Shown: positions 5,118-30,541 of the stretch, one piece after another
How positions within the stretch are numbered: the stretch's first letter is position 1
Layout: each line of letters starts with the position of its first letter
Assembly (NCBI RefSeq): GCF_014062315.1
Contig: NZ_JACGLT010000009.1
Span: 1 to 64,000 of the forward strand
DNA: 64,000 nucleotides
DNA from: Gelidibacter maritimus
GTDB lineage: Bacteria > Bacteroidota > Bacteroidia > Flavobacteriales > Flavobacteriaceae
Reading direction: 5' to 3'
Notes under the pieces: model-generated
What the model was told of the DNA's origin: nothing
The model's input: only the letters and a program-made list of their open reading frames with translations
Databases searched by the model: none
Program-made: the position numbers and the translations under genes

Positions 5118-6140
5118 CTACAACCCATAAAACCCACGATACCAAGCCACAAAAGCCGCAATCCCTTCTGCAACTTCCGTATTCGGTTCGTAGTTAAAGT
5201 CCTTTTTCAATAAGCTGACATTGGCATAGGTCTGCTTGACATCGCCGGGCTGCATGGGCATCATTTCTTTGATAGCCGATTTGTCCAAGGCTTTTTCAAT
5301 CGCTTCAATATAGTCTAAAAGTTGCACCGGCTGACTGTTGCCGATATTATAGAGCTTGTATTTTGACGTGTTTTCTGATGGGTCTAACAATGTGGTCAGC
5401 ACCCCAGCCACAATATCATCGATATAGGTAAAATCACGGGAGAGATCGCCATTATTAAAAACTTTGACAGGCTTGTTATTGATAATGGCATCGGTGAACA
5501 AAAACATGGCCATATCCGGTCTTCCCCAAGGACCGTACACCGTGAAGAATCGTAGACCAATGGTTTCAAAACCGTACAAATGGCTGTAGGTATGCGCCAT
5601 CAACTCATTGGCCTTTTTGGTTGCGGCATATAAACTGATGGGGTGATCCACACGGTCTCTTTCTTCAAAAGGCACGGCATCACTATTGCCATAAACACTG
5701 GAACTGCTGGCATAGACTAATTTCGGAACTTTATAGTTACGGCAGCATTCCAATATATTTAGAAAACCGGTCAAATTACTGTCTGCATAAGCTTCAGGGT
5801 TCTCCAAAGAATACCGCACGCCAGCTTGGGCGGCTAAATTGCAGACGATGTCAATTGGATAAGCTTCAAAAAGCTTTGGCAAGGCCTGTCGGTCCTCTAC
5901 ATTCATTTTGACAAAGACCATCTGCTCACCATAAGTGGTGCTGGAGGTATAATGGAGCTCTTGAGCCGCTTCCGTCCTATCAATCCCCAATTGCTCCAAA
6001 CGCGCAAATTTTAAATTGACATCATAGTAAGCGTTGATATTATCGAGTCCGATGACCTTGTGTCCTTTCTCCAAAAGTGCTTTGGAGACGTGAAAGCCAA
6101 TAAATCCAGCTGCGCCGGTAACCAATATTGTTTTTGACAT
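5118..6140 (-). CDS. NAD-dependent UDP-glucuronate 4-epimerase
   Basis: This 340-aa extended SDR interconverts UDP-glucuronate and UDP-galacturonate in the cytosol. The N-terminal Rossmann motif is GAAGFIGFHV (about residues 8-17), followed by GLDNINAYYDVNLKFARL, which is characteristic of the glucuronate epimerases (LspL/GAE type) as opposed to GalE. The catalytic segment is ASSSSVYG plus SLYAATKKANE, with the Y-x-x-x-K pair. It is the last gene of the minus-strand upxY-gmd-fcl-ugd operon and starts 12 nt after ugd ends. Its substrate is the product of that neighbour, which supports the specificity. CapI-like epimerases of other uronates are the alternative. Confidence 0.9.
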   Translation of the reverse strand: MSKTILVTGAAGFIGFHVSKALLEKGHKVIGLDNINAYYDVNLKFARLEQLGIDRTEAAQELHYTSSTTYGEQMVFVKMNVEDRQALPKLFEAYPIDIVCNLAAQAGVRYSLENPEAYADSNLTGFLNILECCRNYKVPKLVYASSSSVYGNSDAVPFEERDRVDHPISLYAATKKANELMAHTYSHLYGFETIGLRFFTVYGPWGRPDMAMFLFTDAIINNKPVKVFNNGDLSRDFTYIDDIVAGVLTTLLDPSENTSKYKLYNIGNSQPVQLLDYIEAIEKALDKSAIKEMMPMQPGDVKQTYANVSLLKKDFNYEPNTEVAEGIAAFVAWYRGFYGL

Positions 6141-6152
6141 CGTGTTTTGGTT

Positions 6153-7544
6153 TTATTTTCCAATGGCGTAAAAATGGAATCCGATGGACTCCAAAGTTGA
6201 TTGATCTAAAATTCCCCGGCCATCAAATACGAAGGCTGGTTTCTTCATTTCATCATAAATTTTTTGCCAATCGTAAGTCTTAAACTCATCCCATTCGGTT
6301 AAAACGGCGACGGCATGTGCATTCTTGCAGGCCTCGTAAGGATCAAGAACGGTGGTCAAATTTGTGGCATTGGCCTCTTCGGTTCGCGTATTGAGGTAAT
6401 TGAGGTCGCTTTGCATTTGATCTGCCGTTACTTTCGGGTCATACACCACAATATTGGCCTGTTCTTCCATCAGTTGATCTGCCACGTATATGGCTGCCGA
6501 CTCCCGGGTATCGTTGGTATCCTTTTTAAAGGCCCAACCCAAGAAAGCAATTTTCTTGCCCGAAATGGTATTGTAGAGCGTTTGAATGATTTTAGAGGCA
6601 AAGCGCCGTTTTTGATAGTCATTCATTATAATGACCTGCTCCCAATAATCGGCCACCTCATTCAATCCGTAGGATTTTGCGATATAAACAAGGTTTAAAA
6701 TATCCTTTTGAAAACAAGAGCCGCCAAAGCCTACGGAGGCTTTTAAAAACTTAGGCCCGATCCGGCTGTCTTTTCCTATGGCGTTGGCCACTTCGTTGAC
6801 ATCTGCTCCCGTGACTTCACATAATTCCGACATGGCATTAATAGAAGATACGCGTTGCGCCAAGAACGCATTGGCAGTCAATTTTGACAACTCGGACGAC
6901 CACAAGTTTGTGGTCAGAATATTTTCAAGAGGCACCCAGGTGGCATAGATATCTACCAAGGCTTGAATGGCCTCCAGCCCCTCCTTGGTCTGCTCACCAC
7001 CAATGAGCACCCGGTCTGGTGCAATTAAATCCTGAACTGCGGTCCCTTCTGCTAGAAACTCTGGATTGGACAATATTTGAAATTGAACGCCATTTCCGGT
7101 ATTGTGCAAAATACTTTTAATGGCCTGTGCGGTCCTCACGGGTAAGGTCGATTTCTCCACAACAATCTTATCGGTTTTTGCAACGCGGGCTATCTGACGG
7201 GAGCACAATTCAATATATTTTAAATCGGCTGCCATCCCCTTTCCCTGTCCATAAGTTTTGGTGGGGGTATTGACCGAAATAAAAATCATATCGGCAGCTT
7301 CAATGGCTGTATCGACGTCTGTACTAAAGAACAAATTTCGATTTCTAGCCTCTTCGACTACCTTGTCCAAGCCAGGCTCATAAATAGGTAGTTTGTTTAA
7401 ATCCTTATCGTTCCAAGCGGCAATTCGGGCAGCATTGATATCTACCACGGTTACTTTTATATCTGGATTTTTTTGTGCGATAACCGCCATGGTAGGTCCG
7501 CCTACGTAACCGGCACCAATACAGCAAATGTTTTTAATTTTCAT
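6153..7544 (-). CDS. ugd: UDP-glucose 6-dehydrogenase
   Basis: The enzyme oxidises UDP-glucose to UDP-glucuronate with two NAD+. At 463 aa and with [20 protein letters not shown] at the N-terminus it resembles the eukaryote-like Ugd subgroup. The dinucleotide fold is GAGYVGGP (about residues 10-17), and the catalytic Cys is in [14 protein letters not shown] (about residues 273-286). A central helix and a C-terminal UDP-binding domain ([16 protein letters not shown]) are present and complete. It lies between fcl and the UDP-glucuronate epimerase in a polysaccharide precursor operon. Confidence 0.95.
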
Positions 7545-7604
7545 TAGTTTATTTTTTCAGATGGGAAATTTACGAAAAAAGCAGTACTCCCCAAGTTCAT
7601 TCTA

Positions 7605-8555
7605 TTATGATAATATGTTTGTTTTTATAGTGTCCTGATTTTGCAAAAACCAGTCATAAGTCATTTTTATGCCTGTCTGCAAATCAATTTCAGCCTTCCA
7701 GCCTTGATTATTCAGCTTACTCACATCCATTAGTTTGCGTGGGGTGCCATCGGGTTTTGAGGAATCCCATTGAATGGTTCCTTGATGTCCCACAATGTTT
7801 TGTATGGTATGTGCCAACTCTTTAATAGTGACATCTTTCCCTGTGCCAACATTATAAAGGTGTTCGGGTAGCACATGTTCGAGGGCGTAAACCACAGCTT
7901 TTGCCATATCGTCAACATGGAGAAGCTCGCGCATTGGCGTTCCGCTTCCCCATAATTCGACAGGCTCATTGTTCTGTTTTGCATCGTGGAATTTTCTGAG
8001 CATAGCGGGTAATACATGCGACGATCTCAAGTCAAAATTATCGTGAGGCCCGTAAAGGTTGGTTGGCATCAAACTGACAAAATCTTTATGGAACTGTTTG
8101 CGAATGGCTTCGCAAGCTTTCACCCCTGCAATTTTCGCAATGGCGTACCACTCATTGGTGGGCTCTAAACTCCCGGTCAACAAATAGTCTTCCTTTAAAG
8201 GTTGGGGCGCCATTTTTGGATAAATACAGGAACTCCCTAAAAAGATGAATTTCTTGACATCATGGTGATGGGCACCATCAATTAAATTATTCTGAATTTG
8301 TAAATTTTCCATCAAAAACAGATAAGGGTGTTCACTGTTGGCCAGAATCCCACCCACTTTAGCAGCGGCATTAATCACAACTTCCGGGCGCTCTTGCTCG
8401 AAAAACTCAGTGACCTGTGCCTGGTTTCTTAAATCAAGATCCTTGCTGCTTTTTCCAATCAGATTGCTATAGCCCAACTGGCTCAAAGCCCGCCAAACGG
8501 CAGAGCCCACCATCCCCTTATGGCCTGCAATATATATTTTCCTGTTTTTATCCAT
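7605..8555 (-). CDS. fcl: GDP-L-fucose synthase
   Basis: This 316-aa NADPH-dependent epimerase/reductase makes GDP-L-fucose from GDP-4-keto-6-deoxymannose. GHKGMVGSAV near residues 12-21 is the nucleotide-binding loop of the Fcl/WcaG family. The catalytic segment GSSCIYPK and the Y-x-x-x-K in NEWYAIAKIAG are intact, as is PTNLYGPHDNFD. It starts 2 nt after the gmd stop, and the two genes catalyse successive steps, so function is well supported. Confidence 0.95.
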   Translation of the reverse strand: MDKNRKIYIAGHKGMVGSAVWRALSQLGYSNLIGKSSKDLDLRNQAQVTEFFEQERPEVVINAAAKVGGILANSEHPYLFLMENLQIQNNLIDGAHHHDVKKFIFLGSSCIYPKMAPQPLKEDYLLTGSLEPTNEWYAIAKIAGVKACEAIRKQFHKDFVSLMPTNLYGPHDNFDLRSSHVLPAMLRKFHDAKQNNEPVELWGSGTPMRELLHVDDMAKAVVYALEHVLPEHLYNVGTGKDVTIKELAHTIQNIVGHQGTIQWDSSKPDGTPRKLMDVSKLNNQGWKAEIDLQTGIKMTYDWFLQNQDTIKTNILS

Positions 8556-8557
8556 GC

Positions 8558-9673
8558 TTATTCATAATAATTGAGGGTCTTATGGCCTCCTTCTTTCAAA
8601 TATTGTTCCTTCTGCATGAGTTTGATATCGCTTTTCATCATGTCTTTGACCAAATCCTGCAGGTTCAGTTGAGGCTCCCAGCCGAGTTTATGCTTAGCCT
8701 TAGAAGCGTCTCCTATTAAAAGATCCACCTCAGTAGGTCTGAAATATTTAGGATCGACATTGACCACCTCAGCTCCTATTGGCAACTGGAATTTCTGATC
8801 ATGGCAAGCTGTCACAAAGGCTTTTTCTTCTACCCCCGAGCCTTTAAACGCGACCTCAATGCCCACCTCTGCAAAGGCCATTTTTATAAAATCTCTTACC
8901 GTCGTGGTCTTACCGGTAGCAATGACCCAATCTTCAGGTTCGTCGGCTTGAAGGATCATCCACATCATACGGACATAATCCTTGGCATGCCCCCAATCTC
9001 TCTTCGCATCCAAATTACCCAAATAGACCCTGTCTTGTAAACCAAGCGCAATACGAGAGACCGCTCGGGTTATTTTTCGGGTGACAAAGGTTTCACCTCT
9101 AATTGGCGATTCGTGATTGAACAAAATACCATTGCAGGCGTACATCCCGTATGCTTCACGGTAATTGACCGTAATCCAATAGGCGTACATTTTTGCTACC
9201 GCATAAGGCGACCGCGGATAAAATGGAGTGGTTTCAGATTGTGGCACCTCCTGTACTTTTCCGTAAAGCTCTGAAGTTGATGCTTGGTAGATTCTTGTTT
9301 TTTTCTCCAGACCCAACAAACGGACCGCTTCCAAGATGCGTAAAGTTCCTAAGCCATCGGTATTGCCCGTATATTCCGGAATCTCAAAAGACACACTGAC
9401 ATGGCTCATGGCGGCCAGGTTATAGATCTCATCAGGCTGAATATCCTTTATCAATCGGATAAGGTTGGTGCTATCGGTCAGATCGCCATAATGCAGGAAA
9501 AAATCCCGATCTTTTTCGTGCGGATCCTGATATAGATGATCTATTCTATCGGTGTTGAACAACGAAGAACGCCTTTTGACACCGTGGACCTCATAGTCCT
9601 TATTCAATAGAAACTCAGCAAGATAGGCGCCGTCCTGTCCAGTTATCCCCGTAATAAGTGCAATTTTTTTCAT
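8558..9673 (-). CDS. gmd: GDP-mannose 4,6-dehydratase
   Basis: At 371 aa, the usual Gmd length, it converts GDP-D-mannose to GDP-4-keto-6-deoxy-D-mannose with bound NADP. The sequence shows [14 protein letters not shown] (cofactor loop), [36 protein letters not shown] and the catalytic [12 protein letters not shown]. It ends in TLNYYE, typical of flavobacterial Gmd. It is the first enzyme gene downstream of the UpxY-like antiterminator and is tightly coupled to fcl. Confidence 0.96.
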
Positions 9674-9836
9674 TTTAAGCGTTTAATAGATTTTTAAGTA
9701 ACTTCAATGCTGCGCTGCTGGCCGTCTAATAACGACGCGCATCTGATTTTAAATCAATTGATTTTCAGGCAAATTAATCGAATTTAGGCTCAAAAAGATG
9801 CAAAAATAGGATTAATTTAGAGATTGGCTTGACTCA

Positions 9837-10298
9837 TTACTTAATTTTCAACTTAATCACATAGCCCAACTGATGCAAAACCACCCAACATTGATTCCCG
9901 GAAATATATTTTACCGTGCCTTTTTTCGCGGTCAAACCATATTGTTTTAAATCAATCTCTTGACCAATTTCAATTTTCTCTGTAGAAATCACTTGTTGCT
10001 TCTGACTCGCAATATCCTTTAAAACCTGCACCTCCTTTGCCGGTACAACTGCCGGCTCACCCAACCAAAATAGATACCGCACTGCTCCGGGAATAAGAAA
10101 AACCTGCGCCCGATCCTTTTCAGCACAATTAACAAGCACCATGGAAGGCAGTAGTGGTACGGTGACTTTCTTTTTACGGTCACTCCACTGCCGGACTTCT
10201 ACTCGAGTGGGACAACAGACTTCAAAGCCAGCTTCAGTCAATCGTTCAGCAACTTTGAGTTCGTGTTTGGGTTTTGTAATAAGGACATACCAAGGCAT
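9837..10298 (-). CDS. UpxY-like (NusG family) transcription antiterminator
   Basis: This 153-aa protein begins MPWYVLITKPKHELKVAERL, the NGN-domain start of NusG/RfaH/UpxY proteins that ride on RNA polymerase and prevent premature termination in long polysaccharide operons. The C-terminal part (YGLTAKKGTVKYISGNQCWV) is a KOW-like barrel. A longer frame begins at 10364, but its first codons lie upstream of or across the TATCTTTG box at 10342-10335, so the ATG at 10298 is preferred. It is the first gene of the minus-strand sugar-nucleotide operon, the normal place for UpxY, with a 163-bp gap before gmd. Confidence 0.85.
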   Translation of the reverse strand: MPWYVLITKPKHELKVAERLTEAGFEVCCPTRVEVRQWSDRKKKVTVPLLPSMVLVNCAEKDRAQVFLIPGAVRYLFWLGEPAVVPAKEVQVLKDIASQKQQVISTEKIEIGQEIDLKQYGLTAKKGTVKYISGNQCWVVLHQLGYVIKLKIK

Positions 10299-10334
10299 AA
10301 GGTCTACTTTAGATGGTTTTAGATTTCGGATGGT

Positions 10335-10342
10335 CAAAGATA
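10335..10342 (-). promoter_or_regulatory. Promoter -7 box (TATCTTTG) for the upxY operon
   Basis: The minus strand reads TATCTTTG, an exact match to the Bacteroidota -7 consensus TAnnTTTG, about 36 nt upstream of the chosen upxY start. No clear -33 TTG is found at the standard distance. Confidence 0.6.
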
Positions 10343-10884
10343 TAAAAGTGTAGCTGAAATTCATGAGACTCTACCAGCTGTATGCCAAAAAATAGGAATT
10401 TTATAATCAAAAGTCTTGTGGAAATGAAACGTAAATAAGACATTGTCTTTGTGTTTGAATGAGGCCTTGAGGGTTAAAACCAACTGATGGAAATCAGAAA
10501 ATGGAACCAATTCCCTTCCATATTGCGCGGTGAATTGTATTTAAGCACCACTGGACTGGTCTAGCATTAATCATGGTAATGATGAACAAGATTTAATGCC
10601 GTAACACATGCTAACTCGGCCCAACCACAGCATCTAATGATTAAATCAAACAATTTATAAGGAATGATGGCCATAAGAAAGCAACGCCATCATTAGTGTC
10701 AAAAGATAATAAGTGGTATTATTCTGACGTTATAAGGCGTTAATTCGTCAATTCCGTTTAATTTTGCAGTGGCTATCATTGGATATTAGCGATTAAAAGA
10801 GGCACGGATTTTGGACCTAAGCACTTTATCGCTATTTTTATGATGTTTTTTTAAATTTTAATATCAACTTAAATAATTCCCATA
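10343..10884. other. Intergenic region between divergent upxY and T9SS genes
   Basis: No supported gene lies here. It holds a 9-bp inverted repeat, AATGATGGC/GCCATCATT (10663-10671 and 10686-10694), and a second TAnnTTTG match, TAATTTTG (10759-10766, plus strand), that could start a longer leader for the downstream gene. Confidence 0.5.
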
Positions 10885-10892
10885 TACTTTTG
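10885..10892 (+). promoter_or_regulatory. Promoter -7 box (TACTTTTG) for the first T9SS gene
   Basis: TACTTTTG matches TAnnTTTG and lies 33 nt before the ATG at 10926. It overlaps the TTG at 10890 that would open a longer frame, so that TTG is not a credible start. Confidence 0.55.
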
Positions 10893-10925
10893 CGCAAAAC
10901 TCAGTGGATGCTTATTAAAATTCTG

Positions 10926-13130
10926 ATGAAACCGATACTTACATTAAGTTTAGTATGCGCTATGGCATTACCTGTTTCGGGACAGGTTATTGCTGCTTTT
11001 TCAGGAACCAAGGTACCCGAAGCGGTTACGGTTCCGAACATCTCCGCTGAGCCGCTTTCGCGAGGTCCTGGACTGACGGTAAGTGGGGGCCCTACCTTTA
11101 ACAGTGGCAATTGGACCTCGGATAAAAGCATTGACACAAGAGACTATATTGAATGGTCCGTTACTGCAGATCCTGGTTATACTGTTGATATTACCGAATT
11201 ACAGATCAATTTTGACCGAGACCCCGATGGGTTTTCTCATTTTTTCACTGGAAACGGGCCGGCAAGAATAAGAATCAGAACCAGTCTGGATGATTTTAAA
11301 TCGGACATTTATGCACACGACAAGGTCAGCAATTCGGGGCAATCGCCCACTATTGAAACTGCCCTAAAATCGGCACCAGGAGCGTCTATAATCTTTAGGC
11401 TCTATGGTTTTGCCGCCAATATTGGCATGTTGGGACCACTGGGCACTTTAGATATAGAAGGCGGGCTCGGGACCGTATTGGGCCTCGAAAATACGGGAAT
11501 ACGACTTAGTGGCAAGATCACCTATGACGGCCTACAATTCAATAACGGCACCTGGACACCATATGCGCCAAGTGCTAAAACTGGCGACAAAAATATCATT
11601 ATCGGTAATGGCGTCTATACAGAAGCCAATGCCGTACAGGTTAAAAATGTTAAAGTTAATCCCGGAGCAGGTATCCTTATTCAGAAAACGGGTTCCCTTA
11701 CGGTCAACGGCAATCTATTTACCGCCAATAAAGTAACCTTGGAATCGGGATCAGACGCGTTTGCCAGCCTGATCGTATCAGGTGAGGTAGCTGGTACAGT
11801 GACCTACAAACGTCAGATGAAAACCAAAACCTTGTTATCGGGATCGGGCAATGAACTTCTTATATCAGCACCCGTGACGGGCGAAACCTTTGAATCCTTT
11901 AGAAAAGCGAATCCGAATATCGTCAGTAATACGGCCAACTCACAATTTCAATTTGGACCATTTAACAAAACCAAAGCGGCCTTTGATAAGTATTCAAAAA
12001 AAGACAAGCCGATTTTAAAAGCCGCTACGGGCTACAGGGCAGCAGCTACTGATAATGGCAGCTTTATATTTAACGGCAACGTGAATACGGGTGAGGTCCA
12101 TAAAACGATGTCACACTCAGGGCCAGCCTTGGCGGCATGGAACCTTTTGGGCAACCCTTATCCCTCCTATCTCAAATTGTCCGACTTCCTCTTGGCCAAC
12201 TCCGAACAATTGGCGCCAGAGTCGGTGGGAATTTATAGTTTTAATGGCGATGCAACACGCGGCTGGCAGGTTTATAACCAAGCGTATCTTACATTATATC
12301 CTCAAGCCAAACTACCGCCTGGTCAAGGATTTATGGTGGCTGCCAAAAAAGATGGTGATACCATTACATTTGAGCCGGGCATGCGTACAATAGGCAAGAC
12401 GAGCGAATTTTTGGTTGACAAACCTATAATCAAAAATAACGTAGGCTATTTAAAACTTGATATGACCAGTGGCATCCGTAATTATAGTACGGAAGTGTAT
12501 TTTAATGACCATTCCACAAAAGGCTTAGATCCAGGGTACGATGCTAGCATTTACGGCGGGAAAGCTCCGGATTTTTCAATCGCCTCACAGTTGGTAGAAG
12601 ACCATACCGATCTTGATATGGCGGTGCAATCGTTGGCTTATACCGATCTTGACGAGGGCGTCATTATTCCACTGGTTGTAAAAGCAACCAAAGATCAAGC
12701 GCTTACCATTCAGATGAAGGGCAGCAGACTTCCCGAAGAGGTAGACGTTTATTTAGAGGATAAGCAGCAAGGCACATTTACCTTATTAAACTTGTCCGAT
12801 TACCAGCTGGATCCAAATGCCAATCTATCTAATAGTGGCCGCTTTTACTTACATATAGTTAATACAACACTTACTTATGGTAGCCATGGCCTGAATGAAC
12901 TCTTAATAGCCACTTCAAATGCCTCACACATACTACAGATTAAGCAAGTGCTTAAACCAGATACGAACATTACGCTTTATGATCTGCAAGGACGAGCTTT
13001 AATCCAACGTCAATTGAATGAGCAGATCAAAAACAACACGTTGGACCTCTCCAAATTATCCAAAGGCATATACATTTTAAAGCTGCGATCAGGGGCTATG
13101 GAGAAGATTAAGAAAATTTTTGTATATTAA
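10926..13130 (+). CDS. Large secreted protein with T9SS type A sorting domain
   Basis: The protein is about 735 aa. MKPILTLSLVCAMALPVSGQ is a Sec signal peptide, with cleavage likely after SG. The in-frame ATG at 10908 is an alternative start. The last ~75 residues form a type A T9SS C-terminal domain: ITLYDLQGRALIQRQL, then LDLSKLSKGIYILKLRSG and the basic end KIKKIFVY. The body is predicted beta-rich and without recognised catalytic motifs; LLGNPYPSYLKLSDFL and LPPGQGFMVAAK recur in its neighbour (13306) as similar segments, so the two are paralogues. It should cross the outer membrane by T9SS and be surface-attached or released. Role unknown; adhesin or matrix protein is plausible. Confidence 0.85.
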   Translation: MKPILTLSLVCAMALPVSGQVIAAFSGTKVPEAVTVPNISAEPLSRGPGLTVSGGPTFNSGNWTSDKSIDTRDYIEWSVTADPGYTVDITELQINFDRDPDGFSHFFTGNGPARIRIRTSLDDFKSDIYAHDKVSNSGQSPTIETALKSAPGASIIFRLYGFAANIGMLGPLGTLDIEGGLGTVLGLENTGIRLSGKITYDGLQFNNGTWTPYAPSAKTGDKNIIIGNGVYTEANAVQVKNVKVNPGAGILIQKTGSLTVNGNLFTANKVTLESGSDAFASLIVSGEVAGTVTYKRQMKTKTLLSGSGNELLISAPVTGETFESFRKANPNIVSNTANSQFQFGPFNKTKAAFDKYSKKDKPILKAATGYRAAATDNGSFIFNGNVNTGEVHKTMSHSGPALAAWNLLGNPYPSYLKLSDFLLANSEQLAPESVGIYSFNGDATRGWQVYNQAYLTLYPQAKLPPGQGFMVAAKKDGDTITFEPGMRTIGKTSEFLVDKPIIKNNVGYLKLDMTSGIRNYSTEVYFNDHSTKGLDPGYDASIYGGKAPDFSIASQLVEDHTDLDMAVQSLAYTDLDEGVIIPLVVKATKDQALTIQMKGSRLPEEVDVYLEDKQQGTFTLLNLSDYQLDPNANLSNSGRFYLHIVNTTLTYGSHGLNELLIATSNASHILQIKQVLKPDTNITLYDLQGRALIQRQLNEQIKNNTLDLSKLSKGIYILKLRSGAMEKIKKIFVY

Positions 13131-13253
13131 GATTTTTAAATTACTACTATTAACAACTTGATTTTAAGAAGATCGTCGTAGATGAATCAGTCTGAAGTTA
13201 AACCACTGTATAATTTATTTATCGACAAACGGTCAAATTGAATTAACTTTTAA

Positions 13254-13261
13254 TATCTTTG
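13254..13261 (+). promoter_or_regulatory. Promoter -7 box (TATCTTTG) for the second T9SS gene
   Basis: An exact TAnnTTTG match, TATCTTTG, lies 45 nt before the ATG at 13306. It suggests that the second T9SS gene, and perhaps the small peptide gene after it, has its own promoter. Confidence 0.55.
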
Positions 13262-13305
13262 CAAACAAGTTAAAAAAACGGTACAACCCAAATTAACAGT
13301 ATATT

Positions 13306-15651
13306 ATGGCAAAAAACTACTCTTCTTGGATGCTATTAGCTATCCTTTTTATAACATTTAATTTATCTTTTTCACAAACTGTTACATTTACTGGCAGTCC
13401 CAATGATTTTCTTCCATCACAAAAAATAACTGGTGACGCTAATGTGGATTATTACGTTTCTTTCGATGAGGAATCTAAAACCATGTATTTTGGAGCGTTT
13501 AGAACATCAGGTACTTTTGGTGCAGATCATTATTTTACGATATATTTCGATGCAGATCCACAAATAGATCTTACTTCTGGCATTGGATCAACAATAGGAA
13601 TGCGGCAGCATGAAAGAACCCCAACGCTTCCGTTCACTGCCAATGATAGATTTGTTATTACCAACAACCCTTCAGGAGAGAAGACGATGCATCATAGAAG
13701 GGGTGGTCGTAATTGGGGAATAATTCCTCCTACCGAACAGGTTGTTCGACACACTAGTTCGGTTGCGCTGGAAATTGCCATAAAAATCTCCAAGCTGGAT
13801 ATCAGCACCATTTCAACCAAAGGTGTTTATTTTAGTATGTTTATGGCTTCCAACGCTGGCTTCTACGGGTATGACAACGTCAACTATCCAATTAAGTTTG
13901 TTAGCAATAACAGTACAGGGTATTTTGGAGGTATTGGCGTGACATCGAAAATCAGTGACCCAACAGCACATCAGAACACACCTATTCTTCATTCTGTAAT
14001 CAATCCCACTACCCTGCCTCTTAATGCAAAATACGCGTACATGGAGTTTGTAGATAATGAATATGATTATGTTACGGATAACATAGAAATCGTTCCAGGT
14101 GGAACACTTTTAATTGGCCCAGATGGTACATTGATCATCGATAACCTTATTAATAATGGCTTAGTGTCTTTTGAATCTAATTCCTCCCAATATTCAGGTT
14201 TAATTGCAAACTCAGTTGGGGGCAGCGGAACTTCGCAATACCAAAGACACGTGAATGTCGCGGGCAGTGGCTCGACAGGCAGAAACGATTTAATATCGTC
14301 ACCATTTGCAGGACAAACTTTCGGATCCTTCGCAGAAGATAACGATAATCTATTATCCCATCCTACGATACCAACCCAAAAGGGCTTTGGGCCATATAAT
14401 AAAGCCACGGCAACATATCAAAACTATGATACCGTGATAAATGAGAATACCCTCTTAGAATCTGGTGTTGGCTATAGAGCAGGTTCAAAAATTGACGGCT
14501 CATCATTAACTGGTGGCCAATTTCTATTTACTGGTACAATCGTCACGAATAACTTTAGTGTCCCAATAGCACACTCGTCCGACAACTATGGAAGATGGAA
14601 TCTTATTGGAAACCCTTATCCATCCTATGTTGATATGTATGAATTGATTCAATTAAATACGCCCCAATTTGATGAGAGCGAAAACTATGATGGCATCTAT
14701 GCATATAATGGCAATCCTAGTAATTCAAACATTAGTAGTGACATATGGGAAGTTCATAACTTATCAACCACCTTATCTGGACAAAGGGATATGGCACCAG
14801 GACAAGGTTTCTATGTATCTTCAAAAACTGGGGGTGGTTCATTTACTTTTACGTTAACTTCAAGGACACCAGGATATGGCGATGATTTTATTGAATTTAG
14901 AGCCGCCGCACCAATCGAAAATGCAAGTTTACGTTTAACAATTACAAATAATTCAAATAGCACATATACAGATATTTATTTTAATAATCAGGGTACCTTA
15001 GACCATGACCGTGGCTATGACAGTGCGCAAATTGGTAATCCTATTTTTACTATATTTTCTAAATTAGTGGAAGATTCGACAAATCGTGATGTACCTTTAG
15101 TTATACAAACCTTACCTTATAGTATATTAGAGACGGAAGTTATTGTTCCTATTGGCATTAAAGCAAGTCAAGGTGAACAGATAACCATTAGTGCCATCGA
15201 CACGCCGGCACCATCACCGCTACCCGAAACCGTTGAGGTTTATTTTGAAGACAAAGTGGCTCAAACATCTACGCTCCTTAATACCTCGACTCTGCCCCAT
15301 AATAATCATCATATTTTCACACCAAGCACAAATCTTACGGGTGACATGGGACGCTTCTCATTAAGATTTACAAACAAATCATTAAGCACGAACAATCCTG
15401 TCTTTGATGCCTTAGATGTTTACAGCCCGCTCAATACTGGTAGCCTTATCGTTAAGGGCACTGTAAATGAAGTTACCAATCTTGAAATCTTTGATCTCAA
15501 CGGTCGTCTTGTACAAACCTTTTATGTACAGCCATACCAGACGGAAAACAGATTTGAAGTATCAAAAATGGCATCAGGAATTTATATCATTAAACTCAAT
15601 AATAATACACAATCTAAAATCAAGAAAATACAGTTAAATAATAAATCCTAG
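13306..15651 (+). CDS. Large secreted protein with T9SS type A sorting domain
   Basis: This 781-aa protein starts with a Sec signal (MAKNYSSWMLLAILFITFNL, cleavage after FSQ) and ends with a type A T9SS domain (NLEIFDLNGRLVQTF, VSKMASGIYIIKLNN, SKIKKIQLNNKS). The N-terminal ~180 residues (VTFTGSPNDFLPSQKITGDA, YYVSFDEES, YFTIYFDADPQIDL) are unrelated to the first T9SS protein. The middle and C-terminal parts are related to it (NLIGNPYPSYVDMYELI, MAPGQGFYVSSK). It lacks recognised enzymatic motifs. Only 61 nt with no terminator separate it from the first small peptide gene, so readthrough is possible. Confidence 0.87.
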   Translation: MAKNYSSWMLLAILFITFNLSFSQTVTFTGSPNDFLPSQKITGDANVDYYVSFDEESKTMYFGAFRTSGTFGADHYFTIYFDADPQIDLTSGIGSTIGMRQHERTPTLPFTANDRFVITNNPSGEKTMHHRRGGRNWGIIPPTEQVVRHTSSVALEIAIKISKLDISTISTKGVYFSMFMASNAGFYGYDNVNYPIKFVSNNSTGYFGGIGVTSKISDPTAHQNTPILHSVINPTTLPLNAKYAYMEFVDNEYDYVTDNIEIVPGGTLLIGPDGTLIIDNLINNGLVSFESNSSQYSGLIANSVGGSGTSQYQRHVNVAGSGSTGRNDLISSPFAGQTFGSFAEDNDNLLSHPTIPTQKGFGPYNKATATYQNYDTVINENTLLESGVGYRAGSKIDGSSLTGGQFLFTGTIVTNNFSVPIAHSSDNYGRWNLIGNPYPSYVDMYELIQLNTPQFDESENYDGIYAYNGNPSNSNISSDIWEVHNLSTTLSGQRDMAPGQGFYVSSKTGGGSFTFTLTSRTPGYGDDFIEFRAAAPIENASLRLTITNNSNSTYTDIYFNNQGTLDHDRGYDSAQIGNPIFTIFSKLVEDSTNRDVPLVIQTLPYSILETEVIVPIGIKASQGEQITISAIDTPAPSPLPETVEVYFEDKVAQTSTLLNTSTLPHNNHHIFTPSTNLTGDMGRFSLRFTNKSLSTNNPVFDALDVYSPLNTGSLIVKGTVNEVTNLEIFDLNGRLVQTFYVQPYQTENRFEVSKMASGIYIIKLNNNTQSKIKKIQLNNKS

Positions 15652-15712
15652 TAAAACAATATTAACGGATTATTATTTATTTTTTTTCCTAAATGATTTT
15701 TATATTTACACT

Positions 15713-15889
15713 ATGAAGAAGAATAAACCTAAAGTTGAGATCACACGAAAAGAGGCTTTGCAGCGAATGGGCAAATATGCCGCCCTTACGGCTGTGGGTA
15801 CTTTTTTGATCTTAAACCCTAAAAAAGCACAAGCACAATCACCTACCCCAGATGATCCATTGGATCCCGGTGGTGGCATGTTTGATTAA
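15713..15889 (+). CDS. Small precursor-like peptide 1 (58 aa), Tat/leader-like N-terminus
   Basis: This short frame reads MKKNKPKVEITRKEALQRMG and then KYAALTAVGTFLILNPKKAQ before AQSPTPDDPLDPGGGMFD and TAA. Aligned with the second small gene (17133), residues 11-41 are nearly identical: (T/S)RKEAL-x-RMGKYAALTAVGTF(L/I)ILNPKKA-x-A. This conservation supports real coding. (T/S)-R-K-E-A-L followed by a hydrophobic stretch and A-x-A resembles a weak Tat signal, or alternatively a RiPP-type leader. The piece after A41 is only 17 residues, acidic and Pro/Gly-rich. A decayed kinase copy follows, as an intact kinase follows peptide 2. Function unknown; precursor peptide is inference. Confidence 0.75.
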   Translation: MKKNKPKVEITRKEALQRMGKYAALTAVGTFLILNPKKAQAQSPTPDDPLDPGGGMFD

Positions 15890-15908
15890 TAATCTTTTTA
15901 AAAACCAT

Positions 15909-16873
15909 TGAAAAATAAATTTTCTCAAAGCACAGAACCCAACTATCAAATAGTTGGGTTCTGTGCTTTGAGAACTCTAATCAATATCCTCCAACTCAAC
16001 AAAAGTTTTGTTAGATGTTTTTTCGTTCTGAAAGTTAATGAGGATCTGAAAAATGCTTAAAAGTTTAATTAAAAACATTCAGACGACAAGTCAAAAACAT
16101 CCTGTGTTGAACGAAGTGAACCCCTAAATATTCATACCCAAATCCAAAAATGCCCATTAAGATCATCCGATTGACACGTCTTACTAAACACTATTCCAAA
16201 CAGTGGGAACCTATAATTTTGGTAAAATTTATGTTACTGTGAATTTTGAAGCTGTAGCTATCCAAAACTTGCCCCACCAACAGCAACCTACACAACAAAT
16301 GTGACAGAAAACAAGCAACTGCCGTGTTTGTTATCTCCTCAAAACAAACTAAGTTTTGTAAATTTAAGGGCAAGGTTTATATAGGTCAGTTTGCATTGAA
16401 ACTCATAAACACATTTTACTATAACAACGAATCAGATTCGAATGCTTCATCTCTTGGCTCAATCGTTTGTAAAGACGAAGTATCCATTTCGATTAGTGAT
16501 GATTTTAGGAATGGGAAAAACAATCCATTAGCAGTATTGACAGCGAACGGCTTGAACGTACTAACATTTGATCATACCCATTGATCAGCTTAAATTAATT
16601 AACTTATCGTTTACCTCAGCCATTTCTGTTAAGGAGAGTGTTTTTGAAATGTTGCAACTAATGTTTATTAATTGTGATCAATTTCCCACATCAATGAGCA
16701 GCTCAAAAAATGTTAATCTTAATCTTTCCAATCCAAAGTTTCGGAAAAGCCACCTCAAAGATTCCCGCACTAAAGTCGTTTATCTTAAATATGAAGTATA
16801 TAATACTAAAGTCGTGGTTGTCAAATCTGGTATCAAAAATAGAACTTTTTTAGGGTGGTTAAAACTGATTTAG
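15909..16873 (+). pseudogene. Decayed duplicate of the HPr-kinase-like gene
   Basis: Scattered in-frame segments match the intact kinase at 17306. Near 15934 TQLSNSWVLCFENSNQY matches TQLSHSWILWFEASNQY. Near 16210 YNFGKIYVTVNF matches YDFGDRSIAVNF. At 16380-16570 GQFALKLINTFYYNNESD and LAVLTANGLNVLTFD match GQFALQIVNTLYDKEESD and LSAVLMANGFDVLADD. Near 16610 SAISVKESVFEMLQLMF matches SGISVKQGSFKTLETLF. Frames change several times and the P-loop GDSGKGKST has become DDFRNGKNN, so it cannot be a working kinase. It follows peptide 1 as the intact kinase follows peptide 2. The 259 bp from 16874 to 17132 hold no gene. Confidence 0.85.
15921..15973. repeat. Perfect 24-bp inverted repeat with 5-nt loop
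   Basis: TTCTCAAAGCACAGAACCCA-ACTA (15921-15944) is exactly complementary to 15950-15973 around TCAAA. It starts 31 nt after the peptide 1 stop. The right arm is homologous to codons of the intact kinase near 17340, where only the inner CCAACTAT/ATAGTTGG pairing exists, so the perfect palindrome was extended in the pseudogene. There is no T-tract, so it is not a standard terminator; it may stabilise the 3' end of the peptide 1 mRNA. Confidence 0.75.
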
Positions 16874-17102
16874 TTTTATGAACACCACTACCCCGACAAC
16901 AACTTAATCCTTTCTCAATTTAATAAATTATTTTATTCATAAGAGCTTCCTTGCACATATTTTCACAAAACCAAAGAAAGTTATAAGCACACTCCAACTT
17001 TCAATATAATCTACAGCTGTTCAAAACATGAAACTTAAAAACAAAATAAAAATAGATCCTAAAAACACATAAAATTGTTATATTTATGAACTGTGGTTTA
17101 AT

Positions 17103-17110
17103 TATTTTTG
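17103..17110 (+). promoter_or_regulatory. Promoter -7 box (TATTTTTG) for the peptide 2-kinase unit
   Basis: An exact TAnnTTTG match 22 nt before the peptide 2 ATG suggests a short-leader transcript that includes peptide 2, the kinase and probably the nucleotidyltransferase. Confidence 0.55.
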
Positions 17111-17132
17111 AACTGATCCTTATTTTTACAAA

Positions 17133-17303
17133 ATGGAAAACAAAAACTCTAATGACCAAATATCACGTAAAGAAGCGCTGCACCGTATGGGCAAATACGC
17201 TGCATTAACCGCTGTGGGCACTTTTATTATATTGAATCCAAAAAAGGCTCATGCGAGTTCTCCCCCTTGTACTGGCGGCGATCCATTTGACGATTGTCCT
17301 TAG
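17133..17303 (+). CDS. Small precursor-like peptide 2 (56 aa), Tat/leader-like N-terminus
   Basis: The frame reads MENKNSNDQISRKEALHRMG, then KYAALTAVGTFIILNPKKAH, then ASSPPCTGGDPFDDCP and TAG. It has the same numbering as peptide 1: S11-R12-K13-E14-A15-L16, R18-M-G-K-Y, hydrophobic core 23-34 and A39-x-A41. If cut after A41 it would leave a 15-mer with two Cys (C46, C55), three Asp and four Pro. The kinase ATG follows 2 nt after the stop, so the two are translationally coupled. Conserved leader plus short variable tail is the pattern of a modified or exported peptide. A truncated Tat-anchored protein would be the alternative. Confidence 0.78.
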   Translation: MENKNSNDQISRKEALHRMGKYAALTAVGTFIILNPKKAHASSPPCTGGDPFDDCP

Positions 17304-17305
17304 AT

Positions 17306-18445
17306 ATGAAAGTAAAACTATCTCCAAAACACCTTACCCAACTATCTCATAGTTGGATTTTATGGTTTGAAGCTTCCAATCAATACATTGTAGTCCCTGA
17401 CGCCTTGAAAACGCTCATGGACTCGTATTTAGCCGCTGCTAATGAAGATGATTTTGAGGAGCGCACAAATGGCTTGCTAGACCTTTCGCAACACGACACC
17501 GCCTCATATTACAATCAGCTAAGGGATGTATTGGTATCAGCCAATACACCTGTAGAAAATGATCTTCTGGAAAAGTCCAAAATTCCAACCGTTGAAAAAA
17601 CCAACTTGAAAGAAGTCTATGATTTTGGAGATCGGTCAATAGCCGTGAATTTTGGTTCGCATTACATCCAGAATTTAATTCACCCCCAGTGGGCGCATGC
17701 GACAATGTTGTCGGCGCAACTGCCCTCTACTACGTTTGACGTTTTCAATAAAGATCCGCATCTTTATTTATTCAAGGACAAACAATACATTGGTCATTAT
17801 TTGACAACTGACCATCATTTATTACAAGGTCAATTCGCCTTGCAAATTGTCAATACACTTTACGATAAAGAAGAATCCGATTGGATAGCTACTTTTCATG
17901 CCTCAACCGTATGCAACAATAAGGAAGCCATTATGATTATTGGCGATTCAGGAAAGGGAAAAAGTACGCTTTCAGCAGTACTGATGGCGAATGGTTTTGA
18001 TGTATTAGCAGACGATTTCACACCGCTATCAGCCAAAAACCAAGAATTGTACCGTTTTCCGTCAGGTATTTCGGTTAAACAAGGGTCGTTTAAAACTTTG
18101 GAGACCTTGTTTTCAAATTTCGAACAATTTCCAATTTACCAAAGCACTTCAAAGCAAGTGAAAATAAAGTATATCCCTCCCATTATAAATTTCGGCCAAG
18201 CCGCATCCCATTTTCCTTGTAAAAAGATAGTTCTGGTCAATTATGATGCGCAGGCAACATCAGAGATGAAAACCATCGGGATAGAAAAAGTTATGGAAAC
18301 CCTAATCCCCGACTCCTGGTTGTCTCCGTTGGCATCCAATGCCCAAGGTTTTTTAGATTGGCTTAAAGGGGTCTCGTGTTATGAGCTTATTTATGCCGAC
18401 AATGCCACTGCCGTTTCCGAATTCAAGAAGTTATTCAATTCATAA
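17306..18445 (+). CDS. HPr-kinase-like P-loop kinase (HprK-related)
   Basis: This 379-aa protein has a Walker A loop GDSGKGKST (residues 213-221) and the HprK-like DVLADD segment (232-237) followed by a GISVKQGS-like strand, the core layout of HPr kinase/phosphorylase-related kinases. It lacks the N-terminal domain of true HprK. Residues 1-60 (LTQLSHSWILWFEASNQYIV) could be a PqqD/RRE-like peptide-binding domain, which is inference. The ATG at 17306 is chosen over the TTG at 17294 because the latter overlaps the peptide 2 stop. HprK-related kinases of this sort occur with PqqD-like and nucleotidyltransferase proteins, and in some lasso peptide clusters they phosphorylate the precursor. The neighbouring peptide is the obvious candidate substrate. 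Confidence 0.82.
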   Translation: MKVKLSPKHLTQLSHSWILWFEASNQYIVVPDALKTLMDSYLAAANEDDFEERTNGLLDLSQHDTASYYNQLRDVLVSANTPVENDLLEKSKIPTVEKTNLKEVYDFGDRSIAVNFGSHYIQNLIHPQWAHATMLSAQLPSTTFDVFNKDPHLYLFKDKQYIGHYLTTDHHLLQGQFALQIVNTLYDKEESDWIATFHASTVCNNKEAIMIIGDSGKGKSTLSAVLMANGFDVLADDFTPLSAKNQELYRFPSGISVKQGSFKTLETLFSNFEQFPIYQSTSKQVKIKYIPPIINFGQAASHFPCKKIVLVNYDAQATSEMKTIGIEKVMETLIPDSWLSPLASNAQGFLDWLKGVSCYELIYADNATAVSEFKKLFNS

Positions 18446-18504
18446 ACACTTAAAATTCCATCACGCTTTCATTACATTTGATGGCAACTTAACATTTTCA
18501 ACTA

Positions 18505-19551
18505 GTGACAAAGCGTCCCGTATATACCACCACGAAATTTATTGCAGACATCTTGAGTTTCACTGAGAATCAGGAGGCGCTCTCTCGACAAATGGAAGAG
18601 ACTTCCATAGATTGGGACCAGGTGGTGGTTATTGGTAGTAAACATTTAATGTTGCCTGCACTCTACTGTCGGTTAAAAGCGAAGAAGCTTATAGCTTTAA
18701 TTCCCGAAGATTTATCGGTTTATCTCAAGGAAATATCCCATATCAATAGAGGCAGAAATGAGGTCTTATTAACAGAAGCTCGTGAGATATCGGAGATTTT
18801 TAAAAAGGAAAACATAGACCATGTGTTTATTAAGGGGATAGCCCTGATTGCTGGTCATTCTTTTAAGGACCCCGCAGAACGCATGTTGACCGATATCGAT
18901 GTTTTAGTGGCCGAAAACCAACTGCAAAATGCTTTTGACCTCTTAACCAAATACGGATATACGGAAACGGTGACCGGTATTATTGAACGGATCAACCATC
19001 GACATTTACCGAGACAGGTCTCGCCCCAAAAGTTTGGCGCCATTGAGCTGCACAGCGAAATCTTACGTCATGAGCACAGACACTTAATTGTGAATGAGCA
19101 GGTACTAAAAAATAAACGCATAGTAAATGGGATCTGTATCCCATCCATAGAAGATGCCATCAAAATCAGTATCTTGGCGTTTCAAATTAATGACAAAGCC
19201 CAGCGTTACGTATATTTCGCATTTAAACCCATTTATGATTGTCTGGCAATAAATCTTACAAACAAACCCGTCGTAATCGAAAATTTATCTGGTCAAAAAC
19301 ATTCCCAATCATTTTTAGCCATAGCTAGCGTGTTTTTTAAAGAGATGACCCCTATAAAATCGTCTAATTACTCTAAGCTTCTAAGACATTATTTTACGCT
19401 AAGCTTACGCTACCCGATTTTAAGAAAAGTGGTATATTCCATCACAAATATATTAGTGAACATTTATGTGCGATTAAATTTATTGCTGTATAACAAAAGT
19501 TATAGAAGACATCTTTTAAAAAACAAAATAGGACTTAAGTTTATCAAATGA
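18505..19551 (+). CDS. Nucleotidyltransferase-family protein (NTP_transf_5-like)
   Basis: This 348-aa protein begins at a GTG at 18505; the only upstream in-frame ATG is followed by TAA. Residues 105-136 carry HVFIKGIALIAGHSF then RMLTDIDVLVAE, the KG...R-x-x-x-D-I-D-V-L-V signature of the uncharacterised nucleotidyltransferase family found with HprK-related kinases; D130 and D132 would bind metal. The middle contains a His-rich stretch (RINHRHLPRQVSP, ELHSEILRHEHRH), and the C-terminus is basic with a possible amphipathic or membrane-associated segment. It starts 60 nt after the kinase. It probably modifies the same substrate, but no activity is established here. Confidence 0.78.
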   Translation: MTKRPVYTTTKFIADILSFTENQEALSRQMEETSIDWDQVVVIGSKHLMLPALYCRLKAKKLIALIPEDLSVYLKEISHINRGRNEVLLTEAREISEIFKKENIDHVFIKGIALIAGHSFKDPAERMLTDIDVLVAENQLQNAFDLLTKYGYTETVTGIIERINHRHLPRQVSPQKFGAIELHSEILRHEHRHLIVNEQVLKNKRIVNGICIPSIEDAIKISILAFQINDKAQRYVYFAFKPIYDCLAINLTNKPVVIENLSGQKHSQSFLAIASVFFKEMTPIKSSNYSKLLRHYFTLSLRYPILRKVVYSITNILVNIYVRLNLLLYNKSYRRHLLKNKIGLKFIK

Positions 19552-19574
19552 GCTAAAAAACTTAGTTGCAATGC

Positions 19575-19605
19575 TTGGAGTATTAGAAGGAAAGGATTAC
19601 TTTTG
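19575..19605 (+). promoter_or_regulatory. Full Bacteroidota promoter (TTG-N20-TACTTTTG)
   Basis: TTG at 19575-19577 and TACTTTTG at 19598-19605 are separated by 20 nt, the canonical -33/-7 arrangement. The TTG inside the -7 box at 19603 is therefore not a start codon, and the ATG at 19621 is used with a very short leader. Confidence 0.75.
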
Positions 19606-19620
19606 TCCCAAAGCCTTTTT

Positions 19621-20181
19621 ATGAAAAAGATTCTTATTTGTCTGTTTATATCAGTTATTGGGGTAACTGCTAACGCCCAAAGATTTTACAGTTTTGAACA
19701 AAATTGGAAAGCTAGTGTTGGTTTGAATACAGTTGGAAGTTTGAATACGGAAAATCCCTTTAAAAGATTGGGCGACTACGCTTTCCGATTCCCACTTGCC
19801 GTTGCTATTGAGCATCAATGGGATAAAGAATTTGCTGCAGAATTTGATATCAGTCTTAATGGCTATAAAACTGGAGACCCTATCAATAACGGGACAGCAC
19901 CGGAAAATCTTACCTATTTCTCTACAAATGCTAATTTTAAATGGTATTTCACAGATTATCTTTTTGATTCTCCACGAATTGACTTGTTTTTAAGTGGAGG
20001 CTTGGGACTGCTTTATGTGGACGACTTAACATCCACAATTAATATAGGCCCTGGCATACAATATTGGTTTAATCAAGACGTTGGAATACGATTCCAGTCA
20101 ACATCTAAGTTTGCACTGGATAAGAAGTTGTACGCCAATAACCACTTCCAACATTCCTTAATGATGATGTTCCGCCTGTAA
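19621..20181 (+). CDS. Small outer-membrane beta-barrel protein
   Basis: The 186-aa protein has a signal peptide (MKKILICLFISVIGVTANAQ) and alternating hydrophobic/polar strands (AFRFPLAVAIEHQWDK, FAAEFDISLNGYK, FKWYFTDYLF, RIDLFLSGGLGLLYV, IGPGIQYWFNQDVGIRFQ), ending MMMFRL with a C-terminal aromatic-x-hydrophobic pattern. This is the OmpA/OmpX-like porin-fold family common in Flavobacteriia. It has its own promoter, so its link to the upstream kinase module is only positional. Confidence 0.8.
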   Translation: MKKILICLFISVIGVTANAQRFYSFEQNWKASVGLNTVGSLNTENPFKRLGDYAFRFPLAVAIEHQWDKEFAAEFDISLNGYKTGDPINNGTAPENLTYFSTNANFKWYFTDYLFDSPRIDLFLSGGLGLLYVDDLTSTINIGPGIQYWFNQDVGIRFQSTSKFALDKKLYANNHFQHSLMMMFRL

Positions 20182-20229
20182 TTTTTCAACCTTAGTTTAT
20201 TAATACGCTGCAAACCTAAAGTTGAGCAT

Positions 20230-21051
20230 CTACTTGGTCAGATTATAGATTTCAGGAAATTGCAGTTTCAATTCCTGTGGAGTTTCTATAAATGTTTCCA
20301 AGAGCACCGCTATAAACTCATAAGCGTTGGTATAGGCGTAGGCTCTAAAGTAATCGGAAGCAATGAGTTCTTTTCTGAGGGTTTCATCTTTTGATAATAA
20401 ACCCATAAGCGCTTTAAACGTATCGGAAAAAATGGTGGCACTCACATCGTTTTGTTTAATGCTGTTGAGATGAATGGCATGGGCAAATTCATGAATGCCC
20501 AAATTTACATTATCATCGCCGTAGGTATAGCCTTTTACAAAATGCTTCCAGGATAGCACCAACGATTTAAACTTCGGATTGAATTCGCCTTTGTGGTAGG
20601 CCTCATTCTGCGGGGAATAAAAAACATCCGGATAAATAAAAATCCGCTCCATTAGGGCAATTTTATAGTCTCTAAATCCAAAAGTCAGCATTACCCCCGT
20701 GGCCGCTATCAACACTTTCATCTCGTCAGTAACCACCAAATTCTCCCGACCGATAATTTTTTTCCTGATTATAAATTGTGCGACGCGATGCTCAAAATGC
20801 TTTTTTTGGTTTGGTGACAGTTTATTATAAAACGGAAATTGAGTTTGGAGAATTGACCGGTGCCGTGCGTTAAGCCTTTTGAGGTAAAAAGGATAATAAA
20901 CAAAAAATGGCCTCTTTCGCAAAAGCACATATACCAACTCCAGCGCCCTGAAACCATAAAAAAGCAAGAGGCTTACAATTAGGAAAATAAGCACGCCTAG
21001 GATGATCTGCCCCTCTGTTGAAATTTCATTAATTATAAATAATGCTGACAC
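20230..21051 (-). CDS. MtfA-like zinc metallopeptidase (M90) with membrane anchor
   Basis: The 273-aa protein has an N-terminal membrane segment (about residues 14-38, GQIILGVLIFLIVSLLLFYG) followed by a soluble MtfA domain. The zinc motif H-E-F-A-H (LGIHEFAHAIHL, near residue 185) is intact, and Glu residues in the C-terminal YEFIAVLLETFIETP helix can supply the third ligand. E. coli MtfA is a peptidase that also binds the Mlc repressor; no Mlc homologue is seen here. The start is GTG at 21051. The gene faces the plus-strand neighbours and stands alone. Confidence 0.85.
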   Translation of the reverse strand: MSALFIINEISTEGQIILGVLIFLIVSLLLFYGFRALELVYVLLRKRPFFVYYPFYLKRLNARHRSILQTQFPFYNKLSPNQKKHFEHRVAQFIIRKKIIGRENLVVTDEMKVLIAATGVMLTFGFRDYKIALMERIFIYPDVFYSPQNEAYHKGEFNPKFKSLVLSWKHFVKGYTYGDDNVNLGIHEFAHAIHLNSIKQNDVSATIFSDTFKALMGLLSKDETLRKELIASDYFRAYAYTNAYEFIAVLLETFIETPQELKLQFPEIYNLTK

Positions 21052-29997: not shown

Positions 29998-29999
29998 GG

Positions 30000-30516: not shown

Positions 30517-30541
30517 GTGTAACACAATATAAAATCTGCTA

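Follow-up and report, generated by a model that had tools for sequence, protein, structure and literature searches.

A putative kinase-modified peptide system associated with surface proteins of the type IX secretion system in Gelidibacter maritimus and other Flavobacteriaceae

In the genome of Gelidibacter maritimus we have found two small peptides encoded together with an HprK-like kinase, a nucleotidyltransferase (NTase) and proteins of the type IX secretion system (T9SS). They lie in a window of 64,000 nucleotides (positions 1 to 64,000 of contig NZ_JACGLT010000009.1, assembly GCF_014062315.1). These genes probably form a peptide-modification system. The kinase has an N-terminus similar to the recognition element (RRE) of ribosomally synthesized and post-translationally modified peptides (RiPPs); it would phosphorylate a conserved Ser of the peptide, the NTase would elaborate it, the leader would provide for export and the peptide would work with T9SS proteins which share a common module. 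An original prediction, made from the same DNA, had proposed the peptide as a kinase substrate with the NTase as partner, by analogy with lasso peptides. The first part is favoured by the co-occurrence of the genes, a near-invariant Ser, the RRE-like domain and the precedent of the linear polyphosphorylated peptides (LPP); the analogy has to be changed, as LPP appear to be closer than lasso peptides. Genomes (G) and loci (L) are given by our own numbers where they have to be distinguished.

All genes of the unit are on the forward strand. Peptide 1 (15713-15889) has 58 amino acids and peptide 2 (17133-17303) has 56. In both of them the leader spans residues 10-41 and is followed by a conserved Ser43 (codons 15839-15841 and 17259-17261); their tails are SPTPDDPLDPGGGMFD and SPPCTGGDPFDDCP respectively. 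The leaders are identical in 28 of 32 positions. The kinase (17306-18445, 379 residues) starts with an ATG at 17306, 2 nucleotides past the stop of peptide 2; it has the motifs GDSGKGKST and LADD, with its P-loop in residues 213-221. It is followed by the NTase (18505-19551, 348 residues, GTG start), which matches PF14907 (NTP_transf_5) with an E-value of 1.6e-26. The similar leaders, the tight coupling of peptide 2 with a kinase having these motifs and the NTase-like gene behind it had all been reported in the original prediction and are borne out. The leader pattern finds just peptides 1 and 2 in the whole window. No Rfam model matches over threshold in positions 13000-20300, and an RNA element was therefore rejected.

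Between the two peptides there is a decayed second copy of the kinase (15928-16939, forward strand), which tblastn with the intact kinase detects in pieces (E-value 9e-24), with frameshifts and stops. It indicates that the locus is a tandem duplication of a peptide and kinase unit in which one kinase is dead. Kinase remnants are also found between the tandem peptides of the related loci L039 (best E-value 4e-12) and L043 (3e-10), while L044 has a weak kinase piece only (0.004). When peptide 1 is compared with the copy of a sister species (L039), 14 synonymous and 6 non-synonymous codon differences are found (p 1.8e-5 for a synonymous share of 0.24 under neutrality, an assumed value). To judge from this synonymous excess, peptide 1 is under purifying selection and has been retained though its own kinase is dead. 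We have also observed an inverted repeat around CCAACTAT..ATAGTTGG, which places the start region of the kinase (about 17336-17358) opposite the decayed copy (about 15936-15960) as a plus/minus match in tblastn; it may be a coding coincidence or a control element.

The kinase is present in all nine genomes of the genus and the peptide profile matches the same nine. In 299 genomes of the family, the single kinase protein as a query finds 32 genomes at E≤1e-3; the kinase profile finds 30 at E≤1e-5, which become 29 once G252 is dropped (a partial match, 1.6e-11). Kinase matches are spread over 24 of 236 genera, one of them being the genus of G252. The peptide profile matches 32 genomes. Peptide and kinase are found together in 28 genomes, the kinase alone in one, the peptide alone in four and neither in 266 (Fisher p 6e-34, in a test which ignores relatedness). 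In the kinase-only genome, G055, the kinase is cut at a contig start. The peptide-only genomes (G143, G281, G289 and G301) have a completeness of 82-92% and no kinase at E≤1e-3; the peptide match of G301 is interrupted by stops. The original prediction had suggested this profile search, and had stated that small peptides missing beside homologous kinases would speak against it; this did not occur, with a peptide in 28 of the 29 kinase genomes.

Individual loci have the same composition. A peptide is close by in 30 of the 35 kinase loci (the window and L039-L072, counting the truncated L059) and the NTase adjoins the kinase in 31 of them; L059 ends at the contig end, and in L069 the NTase comes before the kinase. 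Of 395 sampled Bacteroidota genomes five have the peptide, all of them in the same family. Among 366 genomes of the order the kinase is found in 11 at E≤1e-20, two of which belong to another family (f68); both of these have the NTase and one (L134) has also the module described below. With the kinase alone as a query, no relative was found in viral contigs. That the window copy came from a phage or plasmid was rejected, given the lack of a viral relative of the kinase and plasmid matches which are distant and alphaproteobacterial. Weaker HprK-like genes, apparently part of a different kinase system, are found in L073 (E-value 1.4e-14, with an NTase-like gene at a distance of about 4 kb) and in L074 (4.6e-8).

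The peptides themselves are well conserved. Our 62 peptide rows correspond to 59 distinct peptides and 54 distinct full tails, with the truncated L059 and L088 set aside. In 35 aligned peptides M1, R12, A15, T26, A27, L34, P36 and S43 are invariant. A Ser occupies one same position behind the leader in 53 of the 54 distinct tails, and the (-3,-1) rule with this Ser at +2 is satisfied by 47. The leader looks like an export signal too, with a Tat-like (twin-arginine translocation) motif and an A-x-A. From the Ser onward the median length is 12 residues (range 7-54); PG, GG or PD is found in 52 of 54 tails and F or W in 51. The peptides match no Pfam model at E≤1, and NCBIfam gives one match at 0.12. 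They might be secreted antimicrobial or signalling RiPPs, the T9SS protein acting as carrier, receptor or immunity factor, as the RiPP-like enzymes and the patchy spread (29 of 299 family genomes) would suggest. However, the tails are little diversified, the six copies in one genome hardly differ, and the Pfam-named recurring neighbours are YqeY, FtsQ, FtsA, FtsZ, Mur ligase, peptidase M90, a NusG-like protein and UDP-sugar dehydrogenase, with no transporter among them; we find such a role quite improbable.

The kinase of the window has only a weak similarity to HPr kinase in Pfam (E-value 4.6e-4). HprK-related kinase A (HprK_rel_A, TIGR04352) has a homologous kinase domain: it matches with an E-value of 3.3e-17 in residues 196-376 only, and its 62.5 bits lie below the cut-off of 200. 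His198, Lys219, Asp236 and Asp237 are invariant in 30 of 30 kinases, and their counterparts in 11 of 11 alphaproteobacterial kinases. By position they can be equated with the His-Lys-Asp-Asp reported as catalytic in lasso peptide kinases, within the available part of that work (PMC9266682). The predicted structure has a mean confidence (predicted local distance difference test, pLDDT) of 92.6, and Foldseek relates it to phosphoenolpyruvate carboxykinase (4.7e-8) and HPr kinase (2.7e-5). In residues 9-79 the model has three strands followed by three helices (pLDDT 84-94 in this block). This order, together with homology to kinases which match PF05402 (PqqD), makes the N-terminus look like an RRE, a PqqD-like winged-helix domain: hhalign aligns the flavobacterial and alphaproteobacterial kinase profiles over their full length, the RRE-like part included (99.9%, E-value 1.9e-33), and four of 11 alphaproteobacterial kinases match PF05402 at E≤1, the best at 4.7e-9.

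The NTase has Lys110, Gly111, Asp130, Asp132, Glu181 and His183 invariant in 29 of 29 sequences. Its profile finds no relative among solved structures by sequence (one match at E 0.18). The structure model (pLDDT 92.9) has MenT1 as its best Foldseek match (E-value 2e-4), with other nucleotidyltransferases above 0.001. It could thus be thought of as a MenT-type toxin, part of a pair of the toxin-antitoxin kind. But its fold is common to other nucleotidyltransferases, including ANT(2''), and its usual company is a leader peptide, a kinase and a surface protein, so that a toxin is very improbable here.

The T9SS cargo gene found upstream also belongs to the system and is the usual partner of the peptide. 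In the window there are two such genes on the forward strand, both coding for type A cargo proteins. The first (10890-13130) has a sorting domain (E-value 3.2e-11) and a module in 11784-12893 (2.3e-135). The second (13306-15651), directly upstream of peptide 1 with a gap of 61 nucleotides, has TIGR04183 (1.5e-9) and a module in 14218-15405 (1.1e-117). Both modules are members of the profile, and both sorting domains are above the Pfam cut-off (C70:12930-13124 and C70:15451-15630). Clustering of neighbours gives one T9SS protein family, which is present in 34 of 49 regions and usually precedes the peptide immediately. The sorting domain TIGR04183 is present in 30 of 31 such cargo proteins and in 13 of 13 of a second set. 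The other domains of the 31 are diverse; common to them is a module of about 370 residues before the sorting domain, with no significant Pfam match (best E-value 0.011).

A module profile built from these 31 genes matches 12 of the 13 proteins of the second set. A module gene precedes the peptide in 47 of 49 tested peptides; outside the loci which trained the profile the figure is 18 of 20, with both misses counted there. The misses are peptide 2 of the window, which lies behind the dead kinase, and L078. The 49 do not include peptides unmatched by the motif pattern (L080, L081, L082, L083 and L085, with RKQA leaders, and the fragment L088), the short loci L129, L130 and L131, and those with no open reading frame (ORF) of 80 amino acids within 700 nucleotides upstream (the second tandem peptides of L039, L043 and L044, and L065). 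L080, L081 and L082 are at contig ends, without upstream genes. In G. maritimus there are 44 sorting-domain matches in 4.7 Mb (42 over the cut-off) and five strong module proteins. Some module cargos have no adjacent peptide, three in this genome for example. Because 47 of 49 peptides follow a module gene despite the small number of such genes in this genome, we rejected a chance T9SS neighbour. These counts show that cargo and peptide are associated. The original prediction had considered the T9SS genes as an odd placement; they are instead the rule.

In ten genomes the module scores are bimodal: strong, peptide-linked modules have E≤1.2e-81 and weak ones E≥2.1e-38. G009 and G014, which have no kinase or peptide match, have no strong module. 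Among the 299 genomes a module at E≤1e-40 is found in 36, which include all 29 kinase genomes; there is no kinase without a module. Most of these 29 genomes gave rows to the profile; G055 and G158 gave none, yet they score 1e-137 and 1e-90. A module without a kinase is present in seven genomes (G073, G103, G128, G259, G281, G289 and G298). Scores are intermediate in G103 and G259 (1e-42), in the fragments of G074 (1e-45 to 1e-54) and in G128 (1e-66). RemA and RemZ (8gl6, 8gl8; E-value 1e-32), both with a solved entry, contain distant relatives of the module; as far as the available part of their report goes, they are T9SS substrates of Flavobacterium johnsoniae with C-terminal domains (CTDs) treated as type A, only the CTD of RemZ being well resolved (PMC10994853). 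In the ten genomes the peptide-linked modules score far stronger than the other matches. Genome G062 might have several near-identical module-peptide ends, to judge from contigs which start within a peptide gene (L081 and L082) and others which break off in the module.

The same trio is found in a different group of Bacteria. A tblastn search of plasmids with the kinase gives nine records, all alphaproteobacterial by name, and 29 with the Ensifer relative as a query. The M. tardum protein, a PqqD family chaperone by annotation, carries PF05402 and the kinase; 19 nucleotides before it there is a small ORF with a twin-arginine-type leader. From these records we have read 11 alphaproteobacterial plasmid loci: ten have exactly one small ORF with the leader pattern and ten have the NTase. 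Read by eye, the Ser appears as A-x-A-x-S in eight of the ten peptides and as A-x-A-S in L136 and L142. An RR pair is present in all ten and in the peptides of the five further loci described below; flavobacterial peptides have RK or RN. The leader pattern does not appear in 220 shuffles or in 12 flavobacterial control regions; left unchanged, it finds one ORF in each of five further loci and none in six controls. No module gene matched in the alphaproteobacterial loci. Three Leisingera loci have a cadherin- or immunoglobulin-like giant and a polysaccharide export gene next door.

Some peptides are found away from the kinase. G389 has six peptides beside six T9SS genes, and G603 also has six, of which two are in tandem, beside five such genes; examples of their tails are ASPEAPGSGF and ASPEDPGTGF. 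In each of these genomes a single kinase-NTase pair lies at another site, where neither a peptide nor a module gene is close by. In G130 two peptides are away from the kinase, one behind a module gene and the other (L078) not. Near this orphan peptide (L078:3080-5003) there are five tandem, near-identical ORFs of 119 amino acids, 391 bp apart. We rejected the idea of cargo-specific peptides, as different cargos of one genome have peptides with almost identical tails beside them. Where kinase and NTase are not linked to the peptides, they would have to act in trans, provided that these peptides are the substrate. Another explanation of such pairs is that an unmodified exported or membrane peptide assists the T9SS cargo, while kinase and NTase act elsewhere, for instance on a surface glycan precursor or HPr; capsule-type genes do flank many loci, and of the four full peptides whose genomes have no detected kinase, three keep the Ser. 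It is difficult to reconcile with the peptide found in nearly all kinase genomes and the 2-nucleotide gap, with the RRE-like domain on the kinase and with the trio of the alphaproteobacteria, where no module accompanies it; we regard it as rather unlikely.

Among the published systems LPP appear to be the closest relative found, not lasso peptides. LPP were described in 2026 in Bacillota, and the available part of that paper reports that LppK phosphorylates Ser3 just behind the leader cut, that a signal-peptidase-like enzyme makes the cut, that the role of LppN is open and that its authors consider LPP restricted to Bacillota (PMC13381572). Both systems have an HprK-like kinase and a nucleoside triphosphate transferase side by side, the pair which serves as criterion for LPP and is found in 31 of 35 kinase loci here. 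They also have in common a linear precursor, a Ser just behind the leader, polysaccharide genes nearby and recognition through an RRE, which is presumed here. The RRE is discrete in LPP, whereas in the present system the kinase itself carries the RRE-like domain as a fusion (a second, separate RRE was not searched for). The LPP leader motif YxxPxVLxHQxIxFETxxS is absent from 35 peptides here, and their leader resembles an export signal instead. A further difference is the T9SS cargo partner, as well as the presence in Bacteroidota and Alphaproteobacteria rather than Bacillota. Neither a signal peptidase I (SpI)-like peptidase nor an MsbA-like transporter appears among the 10 Pfam-named recurring neighbours or in the ORF lists; no genome-wide search for them was made.

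The phosphorylated lasso peptides paeninodin and pseudomycoidin resemble the present system in having a kinase with the residues His-Lys-Asp-Asp and a homologue of the NTase (PsmN), which has been linked to the addition of a hexose to the phosphorylated Ser; but theirs is the C-terminal Ser of a macrolactam-forming core, according to the available part of the source, and here it is at the tail start (PMC9266682). A lasso peptide was rejected, as no cyclase or B2 protease was noticed on reading the neighbour ORF lists, no profile search for these having been made. In the open-licence literature we recognised no paper, by titles and abstract starts, as describing this system; subscription journals mostly, and bioRxiv wholly, lie outside it.

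A mechanism can be proposed along these lines. The N-terminal RRE of the kinase would bind the leader of the small peptide, and the HprK-like domain would phosphorylate the Ser, one or two residues behind the A-x-A leader end, as its conservation and LPP suggest. The NTase may then elaborate or cap the phosphate. The Tat/Sec-like leader would export the peptide and then be cut, using the cell's own export and signal peptidase, and leave a modified exopeptide rich in Pro and Gly, with about 12 residues from the Ser on in Flavobacteriaceae (the median). This exopeptide would be made beside T9SS surface proteins bearing the pre-CTD module, and most likely work with them. The co-inheritance of peptide, kinase, transferase and surface protein in one family points to a putative chemical tagging system.

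Several observations weigh against this mechanism. As regards the RRE, Pfam finds no PqqD in the flavobacterial kinases (the window kinase, and among 25 of 30 families listed), NCBIfam gives a weak PqqD-type match (0.0027) in two of 30, a search of the PDB with the N-terminal profile yields no PqqD, and hhalign of the N-terminal domain alone with one M. tardum protein gives no alignment. As regards the peptide, the flavobacterial motif is RK or RN and not a twin arginine, and the (-3,-1) rule, with the Ser placed at +2, is violated in seven of 54 tails. The Ser is replaced by Tyr in L086 (G289, 89% complete, no kinase found). It is kept in L083 and L084 (G281) and L085 (G143), in genomes with no kinase found, so Ser and kinase are not strictly tied. 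The gene set is also variable: the kinase loci L066, L070 and L071 have no adjacent NTase, L138 has a kinase with neither NTase nor peptide, L083 and L085 have no cargo or module gene upstream, and G128 (99% complete) has a module (3.9e-66) with no kinase or peptide match. Finally, the genes used to build the module profiles were peptide-linked ones from the very genomes searched, and the leader pattern was designed with the first sequences already in view, its five follow-up loci being relatives of the first set.

If the proposed modification takes place, kinase-modified linear peptides would not be limited to Bacillota but extend to two Gram-negative phyla. The system could then dispense with a dedicated protease and transporter, an export signal serving as leader. 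The modification would be tied to a defined class of T9SS surface proteins, Ser43 would be a candidate substrate site for an uncharacterised kinase and NTase, and there would be a new way of studying how certain type A proteins of the T9SS are held at, or act on, the surface. A further step, which we put forward as a doubtful extension, is that the NTase loads a sugar- or nucleotide-phosphate on the phosphorylated Ser of a peptide whose leader doubles as export signal, and that this peptide is the ligand or covalent acceptor which fixes surface proteins to envelope polysaccharide. The fixed proteins, in this same speculative extension, might be the T9SS cargo with RemA-like modules in Bacteroidota and the immunoglobulin- or cadherin-like giants in Leisingera. 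Envelopes which are otherwise unrelated would then have a peptide chemistry in common.

Other genes are found around the locus. Behind the NTase there is a small protein of about 190 amino acids (19621-20181, forward strand), outer-membrane-like by eye only and with no Pfam match; its family is directly 3' of the NTase in 17 of 49 regions, and it is uncertain whether it is part of the system. On the opposite strand follows a peptidase M90 family protein (20230-21051), a family near the module in 11 of 49 regions. Divergent to the module there are capsule-type genes (5118-10364, reverse strand) with sugar epimerases, a UDP-sugar dehydrogenase and a NusG-like regulator, similar to the polysaccharide genes reported near LPP loci. 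The epimerase family is present in 13 of 49 regions and the regulator family in 10, many of these regions being from one genus. The locus is often close to the end of a cell-division cluster, L044 being one example, with the YqeY family in 10 of 49 regions and the FtsQ, FtsA and FtsZ families in nine; by eye, the window ORFs in 29548-33844 resemble those cell-division genes.

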